From Fidelibacterota bacterium (GTDB lineage Bacteria > Pseudomonadota > Alphaproteobacteria > Rhodospirillales > Rhodospirillaceae), in contig CANJLF010000004.1 of the NCBI GenBank assembly GCA_947475295.1, forward strand, positions 62,001-126,000: a DNA stretch of 64,000 bases, read 5' to 3'. Position 1 is the stretch's first letter; each line of letters begins with the position of its first letter. Of this stretch, positions 51,482 through 63,733 are shown one piece after another. The translations under genes and the position numbers were made by a program. The notes beneath the pieces are model-generated. The model was not told the DNA's origin. It searched no databases and saw only the letters and a list, made by a program, of their open reading frames with translations.

Positions 51482-51795
51482 TGGGCACGGTTCTGACCTA
51501 CCGCAATAACGGCGAGCGGCCCTTCTGCGAGGTGGCGCTGGACAACGGCGACCGCGTCCAGCTTCACCTCGACAAAGCGGGCGTCATGATCGAACGTCAG
51601 GCCTTGGAAGGACGACCCGCGGAAATTCTATTCAAAGGCGATCCCGATCTCGTGACCGGCATGTGCGTGGCGTTTCTGGGCAGGACGCCGACCGACAATA
51701 CCACGCCGCTCGATCTTTTGATTTCCATCGTCACGCAGATCCCCTCGGCCAAAGAGGTGCGTGAGGCTTGCCGCGCCGCGGCGAGAGCATTTTAG
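51481..51795 (+). CDS. Hypothetical protein, 104 aa
   Basis: This small soluble, probably beta-rich protein ([19 protein letters not shown]) has no signal or membrane helix. It is translationally coupled to the MotB-like gene and is probably the last gene of that unit. It overlaps the convergent dioxygenase stop. No family is recognised. Confidence 0.65.
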
Positions 51796-52472
51796 GCGTC
51801 CGCCCAGAGTCTCAGCAGATTGTGATAGACGCCGGCGAGCTGAACCACAGCCGGGTGCTGGGGCACGTCGCGGCCCAGCTGCTGAATGGACGTGTCGAGA
51901 TTGAACAGCAGCGTGCGTTGGGTATCGTCGCGCACCATGCTTTGAATCCAGAAGAATGACGCGAGCCGCGTACCGCGCGTGACCGGCTCGACGTGGTGCA
52001 CGCTCGTGCCCGGATAGAGCACCATGTCCCCGGCCGGAAGCTTGATACGGCGCGGACCGAAGGTGTCTTCGATGACCAGCTCGCCGCCGTCGTAGTCCTC
52101 GGGTGCTGTGAGAAAGAGCGTGGCCGAAAGATCAGTGCGCACGCGAAATGGCGTACCCGCCACCGGCCTGATGGCGCCGTCGACGTGGCGGCCGTAGTTC
52201 TGATTGCCGGTGTAACGATTGAACAGCGGCGGCACCACTTTCAACGGCAACGCCGCCGACGTAAACAGCGGATGCTTTTCCAGTATGCCCAGGATCATCT
52301 GGCCCAGCTGCTTGCCCACCGGGTGCATATCGGGCACCTGGGTGTTGTCCTTGACCCGCTGCGAGAGGTAACCGGCGGTATTGCGGCCGTCGGCCCACTC
52401 GGCCTTGTCCAGTTCAGCGCGGACGTGCGTTACCTGCTCGGCCGTTAGAATTTTCGGGATATGAATGAGCAT
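51792..52472 (-). CDS. piuC: PKHD-type Fe(II)/2-oxoglutarate hydroxylase (PiuC/YbiX)
   Basis: This is a 226-aa dioxygenase of the family usually found beside TonB-dependent siderophore receptors. The iron site HVD...H is visible in [12 protein letters not shown] and [13 protein letters not shown]. The 2-oxoglutarate Arg lies in [13 protein letters not shown]. The receptor gene lies upstream on the same strand, separated by a large inverted repeat. The substrate is unknown. Confidence 0.92.
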
Positions 52473-52604: not shown

Positions 52605-54827
52605 CTAGTAGTTCACATTGACGGCGAACATCGCCGAGCGCCCGGCGCCCGGGACAACGTGCTGTTGATGCAACGCATCGTAATAGTACTTGTCGGTCAG
52701 ATTCTTCAGATTGACCTTGAAGGTAAGGTGGTCCGAGACGTTGTACTGGGCCATGGCGTCGAAGGTCCAATAGCCCGGCACTGAGCGGATCGGGGCTGTA
52801 TTCTGGGCGTAACGCAGGCCCACGCGCTGACCGCCGGCGCCCACCTGAATATCACGCGTAATCAGGTAGGACGTCCAGAACGAGAAGGAATGCTTCGGTG
52901 CGTAAGGCAGCGGCGCGCCCACAGCCGGAGCACCGGTTATGGCCGGCGCCTTGATCACTTTGCCGTCGAGGTAGACGTAGCCGGCGATGATCTGCCAGGC
53001 GTCGGTTATGCGGCCGGTGACGCTGACATCGACGCCTTGCGCCCGGAAGGTGCCGCCCAGCGTGTTGAAGCCCGGGGTCGACGGGTTCGGAATGCGCGCG
53101 TTTTCCTTGTCGGTACGGAAGAGCGCCAAGTTGGCGGCGAGCCCGCCCCCCAGAAGATCCCACTTGGTGCCGAACTCAAAGCTCTTGTTCTTTTCCGGAT
53201 CGAGATTGATGTTGGCGGTGGGGAACGCGCCGCGCGCGCTGGTTACGAACGTCAGCGTTTCAGCGGACGGATTGAACGAGTTGCCGAAACTGGCATAGAC
53301 CGTGCCCTCTTCCATCGGCTTGAAGATAACGCCGGCCTTATAGCTGAATTCCTTATCCGTATGGAGATAGCGCTCGGCACCCGTGAAGACACCGGTGGCA
53401 GCGACATAGCGGGTGGCGCCGTAGTTGACGCGGAAGCCATCCCACCGTAGGCCGCCGACGACCTGGAACATGTCGTTGATCTTGATGGTATCGAGCGCAT
53501 AGATCCCAATGCCGTCGCCGGTGGTGTCGGCAATCAGGTTGGGTGGGGTGCCGGTGGACGAGAAGAAGGCGTTCTTCGCAGGCGTCAGCAAGTTGGTGCC
53601 CGGCACGCCTTGGGCGAAACCCATCCACGGCGCGGAACGTTCGCGACCCGCTTCAAGACCCGTGACGATCTTATGCGTGAGCGGGCCGGTCTCGAGTATG
53701 GCGTTTAAATCAACCTGGCCCTGCAGGAAGGTTTCGGTGGCAAAACCGGCGAAGACGTTGCGATTTACGGTGACGCTGGCGACCGCTGTGCCCACCGCCG
53801 CGGCGATCTGCGGTTCGGTGATGCGATTCTCGCGGCTGTAGTGGCCGTAGCGCAGTTGGGTATGCAGTTTCAGATTGTCGCTGAAGTCATGGTCGGCTTT
53901 GGCCGTGACGATGTCGGCGTTGGCTTTCTGATAGTCGCTATTGAAGCCGTAGAAATTGTTGCGCGGCACTTGGGCCACTTGTGTCCCAAACCACGGCAGT
54001 CCGTAGTCGGGCACGTCGTTATTGGACTGATGCACATAGTCGATCACCAGGCGCGTCGGCGTGCCGAGGCCAAGCGCAAGGCTGCCGGCCATGCCCCAGC
54101 GCTGCTGTTTGCCGCCATCGCGGCCCGCGACCTTGCCGTCGTTACCCATGGCGTTGAGGCGAACCGCCGCACCCTCGCCCAGTTCCGGCAGCAGTTCATT
54201 GATGTCGGCCGCAACGCGCTTGGTGCTGTCGGTGCCGAAGTTGACCGAACCGAAAAGGTGCGGCGAGAGGTTGGCTTCTTTCGACACGGAGTTGATCACG
54301 CCGCCGGTCGAGCCGCGGCCGAAAACCATGGAGGCCGGGCCTTGCAACACGTCGATCTGCTCGAGGTCGAAGGGGTCGCGGAAGTACATGCCGAAGTCGC
54401 GCATGCCGTCGAGGAACATGTCGGTGCGCGAGTTGAAGCCGCGGATATTGGGGTTGTTGCCCTGCCAGTTGAATTCACTGGCGCCCAACGTGATGCCGGG
54501 CACGTTGCGGAACGCGTCCTGCATGCTGGTGATGTTGCGCTCTTCGATGACTTCGCGGGTCACCGTGCTGATGGTCTGCGGTGTATCGCGCAACGGCTCC
54601 GTCAATTTATTGAGACCGGAATTGTCGGCCTTGAAATCGCTCGGCGCACGGCCTTCCACGGTGATCGTGGGCATCTGGCGCGACTCAGGCTTGGCAGCCG
54701 CTGTCTGATCGGCGGCAGCGACCTGCTGCTCAGCGGGCTCAGCGGCGGCGGCGAACTCAGGTGCGTTCAGCACAAGCGCGATGGCGGTGCCGGCCAGAAG
54801 TTGGGTGGAAAAGCGCGGCGAAAACAT
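52605..54827 (-). CDS. TonB-dependent siderophore receptor (Fiu/FhuA-like)
   Basis: The 740-aa outer-membrane receptor has a signal peptide (GTAIALVLNAPEFAAAAEP), a plug with NPNIRGFNSRTDMFLDGMRDFG, and VLQGPASMVFGRGSTGGVIN, the hallmark of siderophore receptors. A 22-strand barrel follows, ending in Tyr (FAVNVNY). The ATG at 54827 follows GGAG. PiuC downstream and the TCS plus membrane module upstream suggest a ferric-catecholate-type uptake locus. The ligand class is inferred. Confidence 0.92.
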   Translation of the reverse strand: MFSPRFSTQLLAGTAIALVLNAPEFAAAAEPAEQQVAAADQTAAAKPESRQMPTITVEGRAPSDFKADNSGLNKLTEPLRDTPQTISTVTREVIEERNITSMQDAFRNVPGITLGASEFNWQGNNPNIRGFNSRTDMFLDGMRDFGMYFRDPFDLEQIDVLQGPASMVFGRGSTGGVINSVSKEANLSPHLFGSVNFGTDSTKRVAADINELLPELGEGAAVRLNAMGNDGKVAGRDGGKQQRWGMAGSLALGLGTPTRLVIDYVHQSNNDVPDYGLPWFGTQVAQVPRNNFYGFNSDYQKANADIVTAKADHDFSDNLKLHTQLRYGHYSRENRITEPQIAAAVGTAVASVTVNRNVFAGFATETFLQGQVDLNAILETGPLTHKIVTGLEAGRERSAPWMGFAQGVPGTNLLTPAKNAFFSSTGTPPNLIADTTGDGIGIYALDTIKINDMFQVVGGLRWDGFRVNYGATRYVAATGVFTGAERYLHTDKEFSYKAGVIFKPMEEGTVYASFGNSFNPSAETLTFVTSARGAFPTANINLDPEKNKSFEFGTKWDLLGGGLAANLALFRTDKENARIPNPSTPGFNTLGGTFRAQGVDVSVTGRITDAWQIIAGYVYLDGKVIKAPAITGAPAVGAPLPYAPKHSFSFWTSYLITRDIQVGAGGQRVGLRYAQNTAPIRSVPGYWTFDAMAQYNVSDHLTFKVNLKNLTDKYYYDALHQQHVVPGAGRSAMFAVNVNY

Positions 54828-54976
54828 AACAAACTCTCCTAACATCAGCTGCAATAACGCGCCCGCGGTGCGGACAAAGCTCTAGCGTGCGGGACTTCTG
54901 CATCCCGTTTTAGGCATTTTTAGTCGAGGCTAACCGGTTGCTTTAGCGTACCCGCACCTTCATTAGCCGGTGGGCA

Positions 54977-55303
54977 TCAGCCGGTGGGCGGCGCGAGGAA
55001 CCACGAGCGTTCGGTATAGATACCGCACACGAGAATCACGAACGGCAGAACGTAAAACACCGCGGCCGGAATCTTGTTGTCAATGCGCTTCGGAACGACG
55101 ACGGCGGCAATGACGCCGGCGATCGCAGCGTAGGACATCCAGCCGTACCAGTTCATGGACGGCCCGTTGGACAGATCGACCAGATCGGTCAGGGAGAACT
55201 TGCCGACCAGCGGATAGTAACGCCACAGCGGCATCTCCAGGAGGTGCGCGACGGTATAGACCAGTCCGAACACCAACGAAAAAACGCGAGGTGAAAAGCT
55301 CAT
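54977..55303 (-). CDS. Small membrane protein, module copy B, short subunit
   Basis: The 108-aa protein has three predicted helices. It shares a pattern with the short subunit at 55877: FSLVF, VY, R(Y/F)YPLVG, GP, YGW, VVP.R, and a closing (E/T)R.W. The start codon shares one base with the stop of the upstream partner (TAATG). It lies upstream of the siderophore receptor on the same strand. No named family is recognised. Confidence 0.75.
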   Translation of the reverse strand: MSFSPRVFSLVFGLVYTVAHLLEMPLWRYYPLVGKFSLTDLVDLSNGPSMNWYGWMSYAAIAGVIAAVVVPKRIDNKIPAAVFYVLPFVILVCGIYTERSWFLAPPTG

Positions 55304-55761
55304 TATACCAACCCCTTGGTGTTATTAAGGATGTGACCGACGACCAAGTTCCACCACACGGCAACCATGATAACGGTCGTCACGAAGCGGCGGATTCCGG
55401 TGTCCTCAGTCAAAGGAACTGTGCGCCAGTAATGCCAGTACACCGGCAGCAGGGCGAGCGCGACGACGGCCACATGCTCTTTGATCTGGAACAGGCCGAC
55501 TTGGCCCGATAGACCGGCGGCGAAAAGTGAGCTTTTCACGTCAAGCACATAGGGCGGATAAATATAGCAACCTAAAGCAAAGGTCACGAGATACAGGACG
55601 ACCACGGCATTGGCGTAGCCGGGCCCATTTACGGCGCGAAAGCGGTCGATAAAGGCCCGCGCCGGCGCGGGCTTGCGCCAGACCGACAGCCCTTGGTGCG
55701 TCACCGCACCCAAAAGTAGCATCGCGAATATCGCGTGCAGAACATCCCAGAACGCAATCAT
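55303..55761 (-). CDS. Four-helix membrane protein, module copy B, long subunit
   Basis: The 152-aa protein has four predicted helices with His9, His22, His96 and His143 inside or next to them. It aligns without large gaps to the protein at 56233. THQ, the GY-A-AV-LY segment, KEH, LLPxYW and WWNxxVGHxLNN are shared. Four conserved histidines in a four-helix membrane protein suggest bis-His heme b binding, but this is inference. The ATG at 55761 is preferred over an upstream start. Confidence 0.78.
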   Translation of the reverse strand: MIAFWDVLHAIFAMLLLGAVTHQGLSVWRKPAPARAFIDRFRAVNGPGYANAVVVLYLVTFALGCYIYPPYVLDVKSSLFAAGLSGQVGLFQIKEHVAVVALALLPVYWHYWRTVPLTEDTGIRRFVTTVIMVAVWWNLVVGHILNNTKGLV

Positions 55762-55876
55762 GTATCCCCCTTCGAAGCAGCCCAATTCGGCAGGCTAGAT
55801 TAGCAAGCTAAGCCGCCGCCACAAATGCTACAAATTATCATTGGATTAACAAAGCTGAGAGCTTTGGACAGCGGCT

Positions 55877-56236
55877 TTAATGCAACAGCCAGCGGGTCTC
55901 ATAAATAAAGGTAAAAAGTGTGGCGAAGGCCGGCACCAGCCAAGACCAGCCGGCCCACAGATGCGCCGTCCAGCGCGACGGCACGACGGCCGCCGCCACC
56001 GCAGCCGCGAAGGTGGAGACAATAATCCAGCCGTAATAGATCATGGCCGGACCGAAAGTGGTCGGCTGGATATTGAGGTGCAGCTCGCCCACCAGCGGGT
56101 AAAAGCGGAACAGCGCCAACTCATTATAATAGAGGACGACGTAGACCACCGGAAAAACCAGCGAGAATACGGTCAGCGCCGAAAACAGCCGCTCGGAGGG
56201 GGAACGCGACAGTGTGCTTTGCGGATCAGCCATCAC
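55877..56236 (-). CDS. Small membrane protein, module copy A, short subunit
   Basis: The 119-aa protein has about three helices and is paralogous to the protein at 54977. It shares FRFYPLVGEL, the GPAMIYYGW segment, AAAVVPSRW and the closing YETRWLLH. Its ATG overlaps the stop of the long subunit (ATGA), so the two are translated together. The function is unknown. Confidence 0.76.
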   Translation of the reverse strand: MMADPQSTLSRSPSERLFSALTVFSLVFPVVYVVLYYNELALFRFYPLVGELHLNIQPTTFGPAMIYYGWIIVSTFAAAVAAAVVPSRWTAHLWAGWSWLVPAFATLFTFIYETRWLLH

Positions 56237-56694
56237 GGCAACCCATGAATATTATTGAGCACGTGGCCCACCAGGAAATTCCACCAGATATAAAAAGCCA
56301 ACAGCAGCGTGACGTACTTGCGCTCCGTCGAATGGTTGGTCAGCGCCGGCGCCTTCCAAAACAGCCAATAGGCCGGCAGCAAGCCGAGCCCTAAAGCCGC
56401 CAGATGCTCTTTGGTTTCGAAAGACCCAGCCGCGATATACAAGTCGGCATTTTCCAGATAGGGGCGCACTTCAAGGCGGTAGGAGGCATAGATGATGGCC
56501 CCCAGCAAAAAATCGATCGCGTAAAGGATCGCCACAGCGTCGGCGTAGGAACCGGCCCGCACATTCCTGAGACGGCCGAAAAAGGTGTTGGGCGTCGCCG
56601 GGGCGGTGCGCCATAGCGCCAGAACCTGATGCGTGATGGCGCCGATCAAAGCCACCGCCACCAGTCCGTGCGTTATCAGGAGAACCGTGCTCAT
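56233..56694 (-). CDS. Four-helix membrane protein, module copy A, long subunit
   Basis: The 153-aa protein is paralogous to that at 55303, with equivalent His9, His22, His97 and His144. It starts 9 bp after the sensor-kinase stop, so it is probably co-transcribed with the two-component system. Conserved motifs are GAITHQVLALWR, ETKEHLAALGLGLLPAYW and WWNFLVGHVLNN. Confidence 0.78.
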   Translation of the reverse strand: MSTVLLITHGLVAVALIGAITHQVLALWRTAPATPNTFFGRLRNVRAGSYADAVAILYAIDFLLGAIIYASYRLEVRPYLENADLYIAAGSFETKEHLAALGLGLLPAYWLFWKAPALTNHSTERKYVTLLLAFYIWWNFLVGHVLNNIHGLP

Positions 56695-56703
56695 GGCGCG
56701 GTC

Positions 56704-58074
56704 CTAACCCTGACTTACGGTCTGCAAGGTCAGGCGCGCGCGCAAGCCCGGATGGTTATTGGCCAAAGTCAGACTTCCCCCATGCAGCGCGGCGATGGCC
56801 GAAACCAGGCTCAAGCCCAGACCGGCGCCGCCGGTTCCGCGCGCCGGATCTCCGCGATAGAACCGCGTGGTCACTTTAGACTTCTCGGCGTCGGGAATGC
56901 CAGGGCCGTTGTCGTCCACCAGGATCGCGGCCCCCCCGTCGACACCGGTGCTCAAGGCCACCCCAATACGCCCGCCGCGCGGCGTATACTTGATGGCGTT
57001 GTCGATGAGATTGCCGACGGCCTGGGCGATGAGCGACGGATCACCGGTGACGTCAAGCCGCGGCGGAATATCGGCGGTAAGGTCGAGGCCCTTCTGTTCG
57101 GCCACATGCTGATAGAATTCCACGGTCTCCGAGACGACGCTGGGCAATTCCACGCTCCTGAAGCCCGACTGGCGCGCGCCGGTTTCAATCTGCGCAAGGC
57201 GCATAAGCGCGTTGAAAGTACGGATCAGCTTATCGATGTCGGCGATACCGGACTCAATTTCCTTCTTGGCGACTTCGTCCGAGGACGGCCACTTCGCCAA
57301 GAGGCCCTCGAAGCGCGCACGCGCTTCGGCCAAGGGCGTGCGCAAATCGTGGGCGATGGAGTTTGAGACATTTGTGATGCCGCCGACCAGATGCTCGGTG
57401 TGATCCAGCATGCGGTTGATGGTGGCGGACAAAAGGTCGAGTTCGGTGTTGTCGCCGCGCTCGGGAACGCGCTCTTTCAGATTACCGTGCATGATGGCGC
57501 GGGCGGCGTCGCTGATGGCGTCGATCTGACCCAGGAGCGAACGGCGGATAAAGAAGCCCAGCAGCAGCACCGTCACGAGCAAGGGGATCGAGACGCCGAG
57601 GAAGGCCGCGACGAAGGCTTTACGTCCGGCCAGGAAGTCGGTGAGATCGTAGCCATACAGGAAATGCGAGCCGTCGGACATAATGCGGTGAAGAACCCGG
57701 GCCTCGCTGGGCCCCGGTTCGCGCATGATGTTGATGGTATACCACCCAGGAACGTCGCCGATTGCCTCGGGCCACTCATTCAAGTTGCCCGCCAAGGGCT
57801 TGAAATATTCGTCGGTCAGCAGCGCGACTTGGTTCTGGATGGACTTGTGGTCGAACCGGCTGCCCACTTCGTGAACGGTGTTTTCAAGGCCGCCGTCGCG
57901 CACCGCGACGAAGATCGTGTAGGACTCGCTTTCGATCAGCTGTGTCAACTGGGCGTCGACCTGCCCGGCCGTGATGCTCCAGATCCAGGCCGCAAGGCCG
58001 ACCAGCATCAACAACGCCGCACCCGCGTAAACGAAGGCCTGTCGGAACGTACCGGGTGGCAGAAATCTAATCAT
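56704..58074 (-). CDS. Sensor histidine kinase
   Basis: The 456-aa inner-membrane sensor has helices at about 12-32 and 165-187 bracketing a periplasmic domain of about 130 residues. A HAMP domain follows, then the HisKA box SNSIAHDLRTPLAEARA with the phosphorylated His. The ATPase domain has NLIDNAIKYTP (N box), DDNGPGIPD (G1) and GTGGAGLGLSLV (G2). It overlaps the response-regulator gene by 8 nt. The signal is unknown. The neighbourhood suggests metal or iron. Confidence 0.93.
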   Translation of the reverse strand: MIRFLPPGTFRQAFVYAGAALLMLVGLAAWIWSITAGQVDAQLTQLIESESYTIFVAVRDGGLENTVHEVGSRFDHKSIQNQVALLTDEYFKPLAGNLNEWPEAIGDVPGWYTINIMREPGPSEARVLHRIMSDGSHFLYGYDLTDFLAGRKAFVAAFLGVSIPLLVTVLLLGFFIRRSLLGQIDAISDAARAIMHGNLKERVPERGDNTELDLLSATINRMLDHTEHLVGGITNVSNSIAHDLRTPLAEARARFEGLLAKWPSSDEVAKKEIESGIADIDKLIRTFNALMRLAQIETGARQSGFRSVELPSVVSETVEFYQHVAEQKGLDLTADIPPRLDVTGDPSLIAQAVGNLIDNAIKYTPRGGRIGVALSTGVDGGAAILVDDNGPGIPDAEKSKVTTRFYRGDPARGTGGAGLGLSLVSAIAALHGGSLTLANNHPGLRARLTLQTVSQG

Positions 58075-58750
58075 CTGCGGTCAACATATATCCAACGGTG
58101 CGTATGGTGCGCAGCAAGGGCTTGTCGAAGCCGGCGTCGATCTTATTGCGAAGCTTGCTGACTTGCACGTCAATGACATTGGTCTCGGGGTCGAAATCGT
58201 ATTCCCAGACGTTCTCGAGCAACATCGTGCGGGTTACAATCTGGCCGGCATGGCGCATGAGGTATTCCAGCAAGCGGAATTCGCGCGGACGCAGCGTGAT
58301 GAGCTTTCCCGCGCGGGTGACTTTGTGCGTGCGAAAATCGATGCGCAGATCATGCATCGATAACTCGGATACCGCCGCCTGCGGACTTGAGCCGCGCCGC
58401 GCCAAAACCTCGATGCGCGCCATGAGTTCACCAAAGGCAAAAGGCTTGGTGAGGTAGTCGTCGCCGCCCGCCTTAAGCCCGCGGATACGCTCGTCAACAT
58501 CGCCCAAAGCCGAGAGAATCAAGATCGGAGAACTATTGCCGGTGGAGCGCAACTGTTGAATCACCGCAAGGCCTTCCAGATCGCCCGGCAGCATACGGTC
58601 GATGATGATGACGTCGTGCCCGCCTTGCGTCGCCAGGGCCAAGCCATCGCGGCCATTGGTGGCCGCCTCAAGCGTGTGGCCTTCCGCCGCGAGACGATCG
58701 CGGACGAAAGCGCTCAAACGCTCGTTGTCTTCCACCAGCAGGATTTTCAT
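58067..58750 (-). CDS. OmpR/PhoB-family response regulator
   Basis: The 227-aa protein has a receiver domain with acidic EDN at 7-9, the phospho-Asp in VIIIDRMLPGDL and Lys in YLTKPFAFGEL. The C-terminal winged helix (TLRPREFRLLEYLMRHAG) has the DNA-binding region VDVQVSKLRNKID. It heads the minus-strand cluster that continues through the membrane modules. Confidence 0.95.
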   Translation of the reverse strand: MKILLVEDNERLSAFVRDRLAAEGHTLEAATNGRDGLALATQGGHDVIIIDRMLPGDLEGLAVIQQLRSTGNSSPILILSALGDVDERIRGLKAGGDDYLTKPFAFGELMARIEVLARRGSSPQAAVSELSMHDLRIDFRTHKVTRAGKLITLRPREFRLLEYLMRHAGQIVTRTMLLENVWEYDFDPETNVIDVQVSKLRNKIDAGFDKPLLRTIRTVGYMLTADD

Positions 58751-59076
58751 CGATGACCTGTATCCGGGTCCCGGGCGATGCTAGCGGATGCTGCGAGCGC
58801 CGTCTTGTCGGGGAAGGCGGCGAAGGGGCTAGGTAATGCAATGATAATGAAGACGATTTCAAATATCCTCGCCGTCCCCGGGGCGGAAATAAGTCACCTA
58901 TCTACTAATTATGGGTGCATAATTACATTATACATCTATAAGATGCATTTCCGCCGGGTTGAGGCCTATCCGGGACATCTTGCGGGCTGCGGGCGAAGTC
59001 GCTATACACCCGCCTTCCCGCGCGGAACCCCGGATTATTCGGGCGCCAACCCGCCCGCGTATTTATGAGGCGTGCC
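58751..59076. other. 326-bp intergenic region between the response regulator and rpmE
   Basis: No ORF with coding character is present. An AT-rich stretch around 58850-58945 probably holds the divergent promoter for the response regulator. A good sigma-70 promoter for rpmE lies at 58980-59008. No operator repeat was recognised. Confidence 0.6.
58980..59008 (+). promoter_or_regulatory. Sigma-70-type promoter of rpmE
   Basis: TTGCGG and TATACA are separated by exactly 17 bp. The predicted transcript would have a leader of about 60 nt before the rpmE ATG. Confidence 0.6.
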
Positions 59077-59529: not shown

Positions 59530-61473
59530 ATGTTAGCCATCACGCAGTTTGAAGTTCACGTGCTTCAGAAGGGACGCTGGACGATTCATGCACGCTATCC
59601 CGGCGAGGAGCGCAACCAAGCGATCCAAGATGCCCGGGCCACGGAAGCCGGAACCGGCTTCGCCACCAAGGTCATTCGCGAGACCTACTTCCCTGAGGTC
59701 AACGAGAGCGAACGCATCACGGTTTACGCCAGCCCCAAGGCCAAGGAGCAAGATAAGCCGCTGCTGGCCAAGCAGCGCCGCAAACCGCTGGCCAGCGTGG
59801 CGCGCGCCGCGACCGGAGTCGTCACCCGCCGCAACCGCCAGACCGTCGCCCGCCAACCGTTGACGGCCTCGCAGATGTTTTTCCGCGTCATTGTCGCCGG
59901 CGGGTTCAGCCTCGCGGCGGCGACGTTAATGACCGGCGTTCTGGTCTTGACCCTGAATCTGTTCGCCAGCTCCGGCGTGGAATTAGCGCCCGATACGCGC
60001 ACGATGCTACTGACCTATGCCTACATTTTGATGTTCCTATTTTTCTTCCTGTCGCTATTCCGTTCGCGGCTGCCGCTGCACCCGCTTCTGGCCGAACTGT
60101 GGCAGAAGGCCTCCAAGGCGGCCACACCCTCGGTCGTGGCGTTAAATGACGGAAAGCCACCGCGTGTCAGACCGAAGCACGAGCGCGCACCTTCGCCGGA
60201 GACATTGCGCGAGTGGGAAGACCTGAAGGTCAAACGCGGCGATCTTGATCCGCTGAAACTCCAAGAGATGGCGGGCCCGCCGCCCGTGGCCGCGCCGGCG
60301 CCTGCCGAACCGCCGCCGATTGGGGACGTGCCGCCGCCACCCGAGGTCGCGAAAGCCGACGCTAAGAAAGCCGAAGCCGAGAAGGCCGCGGCTAAAAAGG
60401 CGGCCGATGCTAAGAAGAAAGACGATGACGCCAAGAAGGAAGACGCCAAACAGAAAGAGGACTTGGCGCCGGCCCCTGCTGCGCCCACGGAAACCGCGCC
60501 CGATACCTTAAATCTGGAACGTATGGTCTTGCGCCGCTTCGCGGTCGACGTCGTCAAGCCGGCCATCATGAGTTCCATGCCCGACGATCCGGTGGCCCGT
60601 CGTGGAGCCGCTGTGGTTTTGGCCGGCGGCGCTGCCGGCGTTGCCGCGACCGCGCAGTTGACCCCTGCTGGCGAGATGGAGCTGCTGACCGATGTCCTAC
60701 ATCATATCGGCATGACTCAGGGCGCCATCGATTCATTCATGAGTCAGCACGACCAGCAAACCACCGCGCCCGCCAATGCCGGATTGCTCGGCGCCGGACG
60801 CAGCGCGCTGGCTGCCTATCTGGAAGGCGGCGTCAATATCTCCGCCGTGCTGGCCCGCGTTCTGACCAGCTGGCGGACACCCATGGGGCAAAACAATCTG
60901 CCAGACCAAGCGTTCGGTGGCGGCGACATCAATGCGGTACCTTTGCTCGATGTCTATATGATGACCGAATTGCGCGAAGACGCACGCTTCGAGAAAAACG
61001 AAACCGCCGTGGAGGCCCTGCACGATCAGGCCATGGGCATGCATAACGGCGTCGTGCGCGCGGCCATTACCGCGCACGGCGGTCACGAGGTGAAACACAC
61101 CGGCAAAGGCATTTTCGCGCGCTTCGCGTCGGCGCGCGAGGCCGTCGACGCGGCGGTGGACATGCAGCGCGCGTTCACCGAAATCGGCTCCAAGCTCGCC
61201 ATCGGCCTCGTCGGTAATAACACCGCCGGGAATGACCCGATCCTGTCGGCTAACCTGGTGCACCAGGCGCAGGCGGTCGTCGCACGCACCGGCGCCGGCG
61301 AGATTCTCTGCGAAGCCCAGGTTCAAGCGGCCGTGCGGCGTCAACGCGGCATCACTGAGACCGGCGACCTCGATCATGTCTCGGAGGAGTTGGACTTGGT
61401 GCGTCTGGGGACGGCAGCGCCCGACTTTGAAGCCCCTAAACACAATGCCGGCGCCGGTTCCGTCAGCCTTTAA
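59530..61473 (+). CDS. Two-helix membrane protein with degenerate class III cyclase domain
   Basis: The 647-aa protein has an N-terminal alpha/beta domain (residues 1-70, VLQKGRWTIHARYPGEERNQAI), two membrane helices (about 116-142 and 155-178) and a Pro/Ala/Lys linker (about 240-325). A helical domain follows, then a C-terminal nucleotide-cyclase homology region. The two metal-binding Asp positions are replaced by Glu480 (TEL) and Lys526 (HTGKG), so catalysis is unlikely. It is a tandem paralogue of the following gene, with matching length and domain order. It may regulate that protein by heterodimerising. Confidence 0.78.
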   Translation: MLAITQFEVHVLQKGRWTIHARYPGEERNQAIQDARATEAGTGFATKVIRETYFPEVNESERITVYASPKAKEQDKPLLAKQRRKPLASVARAATGVVTRRNRQTVARQPLTASQMFFRVIVAGGFSLAAATLMTGVLVLTLNLFASSGVELAPDTRTMLLTYAYILMFLFFFLSLFRSRLPLHPLLAELWQKASKAATPSVVALNDGKPPRVRPKHERAPSPETLREWEDLKVKRGDLDPLKLQEMAGPPPVAAPAPAEPPPIGDVPPPPEVAKADAKKAEAEKAAAKKAADAKKKDDDAKKEDAKQKEDLAPAPAAPTETAPDTLNLERMVLRRFAVDVVKPAIMSSMPDDPVARRGAAVVLAGGAAGVAATAQLTPAGEMELLTDVLHHIGMTQGAIDSFMSQHDQQTTAPANAGLLGAGRSALAAYLEGGVNISAVLARVLTSWRTPMGQNNLPDQAFGGGDINAVPLLDVYMMTELREDARFEKNETAVEALHDQAMGMHNGVVRAAITAHGGHEVKHTGKGIFARFASAREAVDAAVDMQRAFTEIGSKLAIGLVGNNTAGNDPILSANLVHQAQAVVARTGAGEILCEAQVQAAVRRQRGITETGDLDHVSEELDLVRLGTAAPDFEAPKHNAGAGSVSL

Positions 61474-61798: not shown

Positions 61799-63733
61799 AT
61801 GGCTCGGGAAAGTTACGAAGTCTATTATCAGCAGAACGGACGCTGGCAGCTTCATGCCAGCTACGAAGCTAATCAGCGCGAACAAGCGATCGAGGACGCC
61901 AAGGGTATCGAGGCCAAGGAAGGCTTCCCCTCGCGCGTCGTGCGCGAGACATTCTCGGACGACACCAATACCTCGGAAGAAGTTGTCACCTGGCAAAGCG
62001 CCAAAGCCAAAAATATCAACGACGCCGATTCCATGTTCGGCGAGAAGAAGGCCAAAGCGCCGAAGAAAAAGCGCCAGCCTCCGCCGCCGCAACCGGCGCG
62101 CCCAGCGCCTGATCAACCGCGCCCTTAGCAACCCAAAACCAAACCGTCGCCGCCCAAGCCGACGGGACAAAAACAGCGCAAGCCCAAGAGCAAGAAAAAG
62201 CGCAGCGGTTTTGTCCGCTTCCTACTAGCCATCGTCATCAGCCTTGCGCTGGCCATCGTTTCGATGGTCACCGCGTCATTGATTGTCGCGCAGGTGATGA
62301 GCATGGGCATGCTGCCGCCCGCGAACTATACGCAGCTCATCATTGGCGCCTCGGTGCTGGTATTCTTCCTGGCGCTATTCATCAACCTCCAGCGGCAGTT
62401 TAACATTCTGTCGATGCTGCGCGGCAGCGGCAAAGCGAAGCAGGCGCAAGCACCGGGACCTGGGCAGATGCTGGCCGCGGCCAAAAAGAAGGCTCCGGTC
62501 CAGGACATCGAATTCGACCAGGTTGAAATCGAAGATTTACGCGCCAAGGTCGAAGCCGACGATGCCGCCGCAGCGATGGACACCGAGGAAGCCGAAGCTC
62601 AGGGCGAACTCCAGGTGCTCGACGCTGACATGGGCTCGGAGGTTTACACCAGCGAGCCGGTTGCCGAAGAACCACCGGCTATGGAAGAAGCACCTCCGCC
62701 CCCGCCAACACCTCAGCCCGCCGCCAGGGCCGAGCCCAAGGCGGAGCCGCCGCCGCCCAGACCCGAAGAGAAAAAGCCCGCAGCACCTAAAACGCCGGAG
62801 AAATCGCCGGCGGAAATGGAAGCGCGCAGCGGCCTGACCAAATTCATCAGCGATGCCTTACGCACCGCCAAACCTGAGCCGACTAATGCCTTCTCCAAGT
62901 TCGGCATGAATCTGTATTTGGCGGGCGGCGCCTCGGTCATCGGCCAGTCGAAGAAGCTCGGCAAGGACGCGCAGCTTTCGGTATTGAAGGACGGCTTGGT
63001 CGCGGCCGGAAATACGCCCGAACGGGCCGAGAGTTTCTGCGTCGAGTTGCCGACCTACGGCAAGAATCCGCGCTATACGTTCATGGTGCAGGCCGGCGCT
63101 AAGGCCATGACCCTGCAGATGCGCGGCGACGCCAACGCCACCCAAGACATCGGCGCCCTGCTCTCTGAATGGAACCTGCCGGAGAAGCGCCCCACGGTGC
63201 CTTCGGTGTTCACCTTTGTGTTTACCGATATCGTCGGCTCGACCGCCATGACTCAGCGTCTCGGCAATGCCGGCGCGCAAAAGGCGGTGCGCGCTCACAA
63301 TACCGCCGTGCGCGGCGCGTTGCAGGCCCACAAGGGCCGCGAAGTGAAGCACACCGGCGACGGCATTATGGCGGTGTTCCCCGACCCGGTGTCGGCGGTG
63401 CAAGCCACCATCCGCATGCAGCGCGAGGTCGCCGCCCACAACGGTGCAAACCCCAATATCGAAGTCATGATTCGTGTGGGCGTCAACGTCGGCGAAGCGG
63501 TGGAAGAGGACAACGACTTCTTCGGCGCGGCCGTGCAGATGACGGCGCGCATTTGCGACAAGGCCACCAAGGGCAATATCTGGGTATCGCAAGCCGTGAA
63601 AGACGCCTGCAAAGGCCAGAAGATCGGTTTTATCCCGCGCGGCGGTTTTGAGATGAAGGGCATTCAGGGCAAGAAGTCGCTTTATGAAATCGGCTGGAGC
63701 GACACCCACAAGAACGAGCTGGCCGACCTTTAG
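61799..63733 (+). pseudogene. Membrane class III adenylate/guanylate cyclase gene interrupted by an in-frame TAG
   Basis: Read through codon 110 (TAG at 62126-62128), the frame encodes 644 aa. It comprises the N-terminal domain homologous to the preceding gene, a basic linker, two helices (FLLAIVISLALAIVSMV and LIIGASVLVFFLALFI), a Pro-rich linker, a helical domain and an intact cyclase domain. Both metal Asp residues are present: Asp477 in FTDIVGS and Asp521 in HTGDGIMAVF. The first in-frame start codon after the stop is the ATG at 62264, inside the first helix. CAG-to-TAG is the simplest mutation. Genuine disruption, readthrough or a sequencing error are all possible. Confidence 0.8.

Follow-up and report, generated by a model that had tools for sequence, protein, structure and literature searches.

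A two-subunit membrane module with invariant histidines in a TonB-PiuC iron-uptake locus: a possible electron-transfer unit behind a candidate regulatory box

Pairs of a TonB-dependent receptor and a PiuC-type dioxygenase, as represented by CciT-CciO, function in iron uptake (PMC12004947), and catechol receptors are controlled by the PirRS two-component system (PMC9426570). The Caulobacter protein HiuB and the small protein HiuC constitute a two-part reductase that is comparable to the module described here (PMC13001220). Heme b has been demonstrated for DUF4405 and FezC, and FezC may build its heme sites by homodimerisation (PMC10979944).

The window (the whole 64,000-nucleotide stretch of DNA that was analysed) derives from a freshwater bacterium and carries, in two copies, a hitherto undescribed gene pair for small inner-membrane proteins, the long and short subunits. 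The features of the locus are as follows.

51792-52472, minus strand: PiuC/CciO/YbiX-type Fe(II) dioxygenase (NF003975, 356.7 bits, cut-off 180; PKHD_C and 2OG-FeII_Oxy_3)
52605-54854, minus strand: TonB-dependent siderophore receptor, Fiu-like (TIGR01783, 267.9 bits, cut-off 223.5)
54977-55303, minus strand: copy B short subunit, 108 aa
55303-55761, minus strand: copy B long subunit, 152 aa, ATG at 55761, H9/H22/H96/H143
55830-55852, minus strand: DNA box 2, core 55834-55849 TTAATCCAATGATAAT, about 70 bp upstream of the copy B long gene
55877-56236, minus strand: copy A short subunit, 119 aa from GTG, three helices, conserved YP...GPxM..YGW outer loop
56233-56694, minus strand: copy A long subunit, 153 aa, four helices, H9/H22/H97/H144
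56704-58074, minus strand: sensor histidine kinase, 456 aa; HAMP, HisKA, HATPase_c
58067-58750, minus strand: OmpR-family response regulator, 227 aa; PF00072 and PF00486
58830-58852, plus strand: DNA box 1, core 58833-58848 GTAATGCAATGATAAT, 80 bp upstream of the response-regulator start

The original prediction described two adjacent four-helix/three-helix gene pairs with overlapping genes, and both pairs exist as drawn: the start of the short gene overlaps the stop of the long gene in copy A, and the copy B genes overlap likewise. It also placed the copy A long gene 9 bp past the sensor kinase, whose stop is indeed at 56704, and the TonB receptor and PiuC genes downstream on the same strand, where they are found at 52605-54854 and 51792-52472. 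The motifs that it listed, KEH and GHxLNN in the long subunits and R(Y/F)YPLVG and YGW in the short subunits, are all present in both copies. Elsewhere in the window, two tandem large adenylate-cyclase-like proteins (59530-61473 and 61799-63733) share an N-terminal domain and are kept beside rpmE across the genus.

The locus resembles PirR-PirS/PirA and PiuA-PiuC of Pseudomonas and CciT-CciO of Caulobacter in combining an OmpR-type two-component system, a catechol-type TonB receptor and a PiuC-type dioxygenase (PMC9426570, PMC12004947). As in the PirRS/PfeRS-type layout, the OmpR-type regulator and kinase adjoin a TonB siderophore receptor, an order that is kept in five genomes, and as in CciT-CciO and PiuA-PiuC the receptor is followed by a PiuC-type dioxygenase, with TIGR01783 and NF003975 both above cut-off. 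The top model of the receptor is Fiu (NF007349), but its score lies below that model's cut-off. The locus differs from these systems in the long/short module in between, in a distinct DNA box and in promoters that display no recognisable Fur box in a simple consensus scan. A Fur box in place of the regulator box was rejected given that the window's promoters match at most 12 of 19 positions of the E. coli consensus, which may miss divergent Fur sites.

The module is conserved far beyond chance, given that single-protein and profile searches retrieve 28 homologous long genes in about 20 genomes and that the short gene lies directly 3' of the long gene in 27/27 testable cases, the 28th being at a contig edge. 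H9, H22, K95, E96 and H97 of the long subunit are present in 28/28 members and H144 in 27/28 (Tyr in L081), so that the predicted conservation of histidines 9, 22, 96/97 and 143/144 extends from both copies to wider homologues. The KEH motif is invariant even in long subunits down to about 40% identity. The short subunit conserves the YP, GP and W residues of its loop and has no conserved histidine. The family is common but patchy in the window's genus (8/19 genomes, its own included) and in its family, and becomes rare in the order (16/317 genomes, 7/115 genera) and the class (4/385). A further phylum sample yielded no convincing long-subunit match, and a plasmid search for the long subunit yielded none. 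Regarding taxonomy, four of five related MAG records (L001-L005) are labelled Candidatus Marinimicrobia; their MotA/MotB-like, PiuC and Fiu-like TonB proteins look proteobacterial, and these four labels are probably wrong.

The word 'duplicated' in the original prediction is correct in that two copies exist and misleading as to their history. In the maximum-likelihood tree, copy A and five other kinase-linked genes stand opposite copy B and five others, and this A/B separation has the highest support among the family's deep splits (97/94). By their placement in the tree, copies A and B are two old paralogues, and a recent tandem duplication is rejected because the copies lie on opposite sides of that split. 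In genome G011, a C-type module is located directly behind copy A, where the window has a B-type module, which indicates that the position next to copy A was filled by different second modules, depending on the lineage.

To which described proteins is the module related? The Pfam profile search that had been called for was run on both subunits and found no established family; neither the long nor the short subunit matches curated Pfam or NCBIfam models, and a PDB sequence search returned no related chain for either, so that the earlier statement that no named family is recognisable holds for these three resources. The module shares with the PepSY reductases (FoxB, PiuB, and HiuB with HiuC) the small inner-membrane proteins, the conserved histidines and an adjacent TonB receptor, and HiuB, like the long subunit, has a small membrane partner (PMC13001220). 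However, the module is smaller, lacks the periplasmic PepSY domain and gives no PepSY profile match: 0/23 long subunits match PF03929 or PF16357 at E values up to 10, whereas a comparable scan picks up a Sphingomonas PepSY protein with PF16357 at 2e-79. Moreover, its histidine depths do not form two clean pairs, and most copies have no TonB neighbour. Likewise, 0/23 members match cytochrome b561 (PF01292), whereas a true b561 in locus L226 matches at 7e-27, and other cytochrome models gave no convincing match. Like DUF4405 and FezC, the module is recognised through conserved membrane histidines, but it is encoded by two genes and has other neighbours, and when 23 members were scanned with Pfam none hit DUF4405.

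Among known families, DUF2269, HemJ and CopD resemble the long subunit in size (about 150 aa), in the presence of four helices and in a conserved histidine in helix 1, DUF2269 being the closest, and differ in that the other three module histidines are not shared. One of 23 long subunits matches DUF2269 (PF10027) at E=0.0052. DUF2269 has been noted as distantly similar to the membrane domain of PuuD (PMC4562309), and the match is one reason to consider that the module, like the membrane urate oxidase PuuD, oxidises a small periplasmic or membrane substrate and passes the electrons to cytochrome c. In an hhalign profile comparison, however, the DUF2269 similarity amounts to 5.8% probability across 38 residues, and HemJ and CopD score 1.2% and 0.3%. 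HemJ/CopD kinship was rejected for this lack of profile similarity, in a weak test whose small alignments also missed the HemJ-DUF2269 link. An ABA4-like (PF14108) kinship of the short subunit is a chance match, with 17.1 bits against a cut-off of 27 in 1/23 members and 0.35% in hhalign.

Foldseek gave no confident match for the long subunit, only common four-helix bundles at E values of 0.26 or more, including designed bundles, FAT and vinculin domains and cytochrome oxidase subunit III. The best fold Z, 13.5, is one that ordinary helical bundles also reach; for 4D2, a designed bundle with two hemes, the alignment covers 104 residues at Z 12.4 and an rmsd of 2.2. The fold search with the short subunit gave no match of note.

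In AlphaFold (AF2) models of copy A, built on a shallow alignment of nine rows from the window and related loci, the long subunit comprises helices 2-27, 47-75, 86-113 and 122-149 (pLDDT 82, pTM 0.78) and the short subunit comprises three helices (pLDDT 83.5). Loop 1-2 of the long subunit averages 3.8 Lys and Arg residues and loop 2-3 is net negative, which suggests an N-out/C-out topology with the N-terminus, loop 2-3 and the C-terminus on the periplasmic side. The model thus suggests that H9, H97 and H144 face the periplasm, as would the conserved short-subunit loop. With depth taken as the number of residues from the predicted helix centre times 1.5 A per residue, H9, H97 and H144 are predicted to lie about 8, 4 and 13 A periplasm-ward and H22 about 11 A cytoplasm-ward. 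Because three histidines are near the outer face and one is near the inner face, two bis-His hemes per subunit are unlikely, and the predicted depths are compatible with a single bis-His heme or a single metal site close to the periplasmic face. The bis-His heme b that was originally predicted is plausible, and its simple two-heme form is not favoured. By analogy with the proposal for FezC (PMC10979944), a homodimer could alter the heme count. The conservation moment directs H97 away from the conserved face of helix 3, and H97 may perhaps point to the short subunit or to a second long subunit.

The clustering of three (nearly) invariant histidines at a similar predicted depth by the outer face is also what a membrane unit that binds or handles a metal (copper, iron or zinc) would present, with H9, H97, H144 and E96 forming a periplasmic-face site and no electrons crossing the membrane. 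We consider this reading unlikely, yet it is the main rival of electron transfer. No member of the module matches a metal-transport family, and the gene neighbourhoods bear on the same choice.

The arrangement kinase-long A-short A is found in six loci (the window, G016, G010, G014, G001 and G011). The response regulator is called ahead of the kinase in five of them, and in G011 the matching start is conserved; five of the six continue to TonB and PiuC, or to TonB at the contig end. An orthologue of the kinase, at 76% or more identity, was found in the six copy A genomes and in none of the other 35 examined. Such 6/6 co-inheritance, together with a 4-bp overlap of the kinase and long A genes in sister genomes, would suit an accessory protein that senses for the histidine kinase or modulates it. 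This role is the least probable of those considered, and 22/28 copies, all outside the A clade, have no kinase directly ahead. In the sister genomes G003, G007, G008 and G013 the site is empty and the MotB-like gene adjoins rpmE, and in G009 and G017 a TonB-PiuC pair stands next to the MotB-like gene, the regulator, the kinase and the module all being absent.

Outside the six loci, a secreted CarboxypepD_reg-like protein is encoded directly 3' of 13/19 copies (two matches being weak), and a large protein with CarboxypepD_reg, a cytochrome c motif (CMGCH) and a Vgb-like propeller lies near 6/19. Most copies outside the six loci are thus adjacent to a secreted beta-sandwich protein and not to siderophore genes. 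The CarboxypepD_reg-like protein has an ANGDEFF start and a VYFGxVKDxxG core and often carries a Tat signal (L038:10773-11342, L080:3251-3772); the large propeller protein is exemplified by L042:7582-9531 and also occurs in L045, L046, L047, L079 and L080. These Vgb-like cytochrome c proteins near the module in six loci, and catabolic genes close by, for instance that of a Rieske oxygenase in L082, would also be expected of the PuuD-like oxidising enzyme considered above, which we regard as improbable, the loci having no common substrate pathway. The same cytochrome c/propeller partners argue against a metal-handling unit. On contig C5 of G011, both kinds of partner gene follow a cytochrome b561 gene and the module is absent, a hint that the module does a job similar to that of b561 and a further argument against metal handling. 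In Sphingomonas, TonB-PiuC is followed by PepSY_TM, DUF2271, DUF4198 and ApbE. Membrane electron transfer is judged most likely because the long/short pair stands where PepSY proteins stand in comparable loci. A small secreted, helical-looking protein with a YDRIPHENEEF-like motif also recurs near boxes and module loci (L224:4526-4999, L226:6217-6663, L227:7082-7621 and L079:583-1038); one of these was checked and has no Pfam match.

The regulatory side of the locus is marked by a DNA box. Alignment of the response-regulator upstream regions reveals one block around ATTATCATTGCATTA that is conserved in 6/6 genomes, the intergenic DNA being otherwise variable, and the same box recurs once per locus, inverted, upstream of the next unit, which is copy B in the window and G016, TonB in G010, G014 and G001, and the C-type module in G011. 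Its common form is the 16-bp TTAATnCAATGATAAT, a TAAT-N7-TAAT direct repeat with an 11-bp period, and direct repeats with this period are usual for OmpR-type regulators. Sites with at most one mismatch number 16 in the six genomes with the system and 0 in five without it, although 12 of the 16 defined the pattern and only four are independent. In G011, where the regulator is on another contig, a box lies 47 bp upstream of TonB-PiuC, independently of the pattern definition, and the TonB-PiuC pairs of G009 and G017, which have no regulator, have no box ahead of them. The box is a candidate target of the response regulator. The regulatory half of the earlier idea, control by the adjacent two-component system, thus gains support from a box that lies ahead of the regulator and of the next unit in all six loci and ahead of the separately located TonB-PiuC pair of G011, and that is missing ahead of TonB-PiuC in G009 and G017.

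Box 2 corresponds to the promoter element found ahead of TonB in sister loci. A promoter-like stretch downstream of it is common to the copy B and TonB promoters, and copy B was therefore apparently inserted downstream of the TonB promoter, ahead of TonB itself. Given this position behind the boxed promoter, copy B would form one unit with TonB and PiuC.

Further boxes with at most one mismatch lie ahead of a TonB energy-transducer gene in G016 and of a PAP2 and azurin-like gene pair in G014, and G011 has another, flanked by a SelO-like gene and a small divergent gene. Azurin-like cupredoxin genes (L225:5066-5536, L224:5036-5617) near a box, with one mismatch in G014 and two in the window's genome (G000), are possible regulon members. 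These boxes speak for the metal-handling unit, as does the closest NCBIfam model of the response regulator, the heavy-metal subfamily CztR/SilR/CopR, though its score is below cut-off; the two-mismatch site, however, is near background. The window's genome also encodes a second TonB-PiuC pair (L229:1527-4628, contig G000:C17), separated by a two-mismatch box from a TonB energy-transducer-like gene that is divergent to it, and a third box-like site in G016 (L033:13063-13085) lies behind PiuC between convergent genes.

We propose, tentatively and with somewhat less than even confidence, that the long and short subunits make up a new family of modules for membrane electron transfer. At this locus the module would have been recruited instead of a PepSY (PiuB/FoxB-like) reductase and would serve to reduce siderophore iron. 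We infer that the two subunits would assemble in the inner membrane as a single complex with a periplasm-facing working site. Electrons would travel from the quinone pool or the inner side to a periplasmic acceptor, by way of heme b or of a different metal coordinated by histidines. In the window, two diverged copies would act in a TonB-PiuC iron-uptake island under the OmpR-type two-component system, copy B lying between an apparently ancestral, boxed TonB promoter and TonB. The module would stand in for the PepSY reductase that is encoded next to TonB-PiuC in other bacteria and would help to free iron from the imported siderophore; outside these loci, the same module would serve other periplasmic partners. 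Of the original functional claims, membrane electron transfer is plausible in light of the invariant membrane histidines, the cytochrome c neighbours and the b561 beside the same partners, the heme being putative. A ferric-siderophore reductase is possible at six loci at most, and the other 19 copies have different neighbours. Against the proposal, the histidines do not form two pairs of equal depth, neither the PepSY, b561 and other cytochrome models nor Foldseek gave a convincing match, G009 and G017 retain TonB-PiuC but have no module with it, and 19/28 copies have no such TonB neighbour. A broader claim, in which we place still less confidence, is that the module exemplifies a new two-subunit transmembrane electron-transfer class with an outer three-histidine site that is unrelated to PepSY, b561 and DUF4405, interchangeable with them, and swapped between iron-uptake and periplasmic-oxidation clusters.

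Bacteria require inner-membrane proteins that send electrons outward, for example to free siderophore iron, and classes of such proteins, including FezC and DUF4405, have been recognised only recently. The present analysis adds a 16-bp box that ties the two-component system, the module copies and TonB-PiuC together. The module family has no named relative; its proteins are small, their histidines are strictly conserved, the same partner gene recurs beside them, and at this locus a candidate regulatory box is added.
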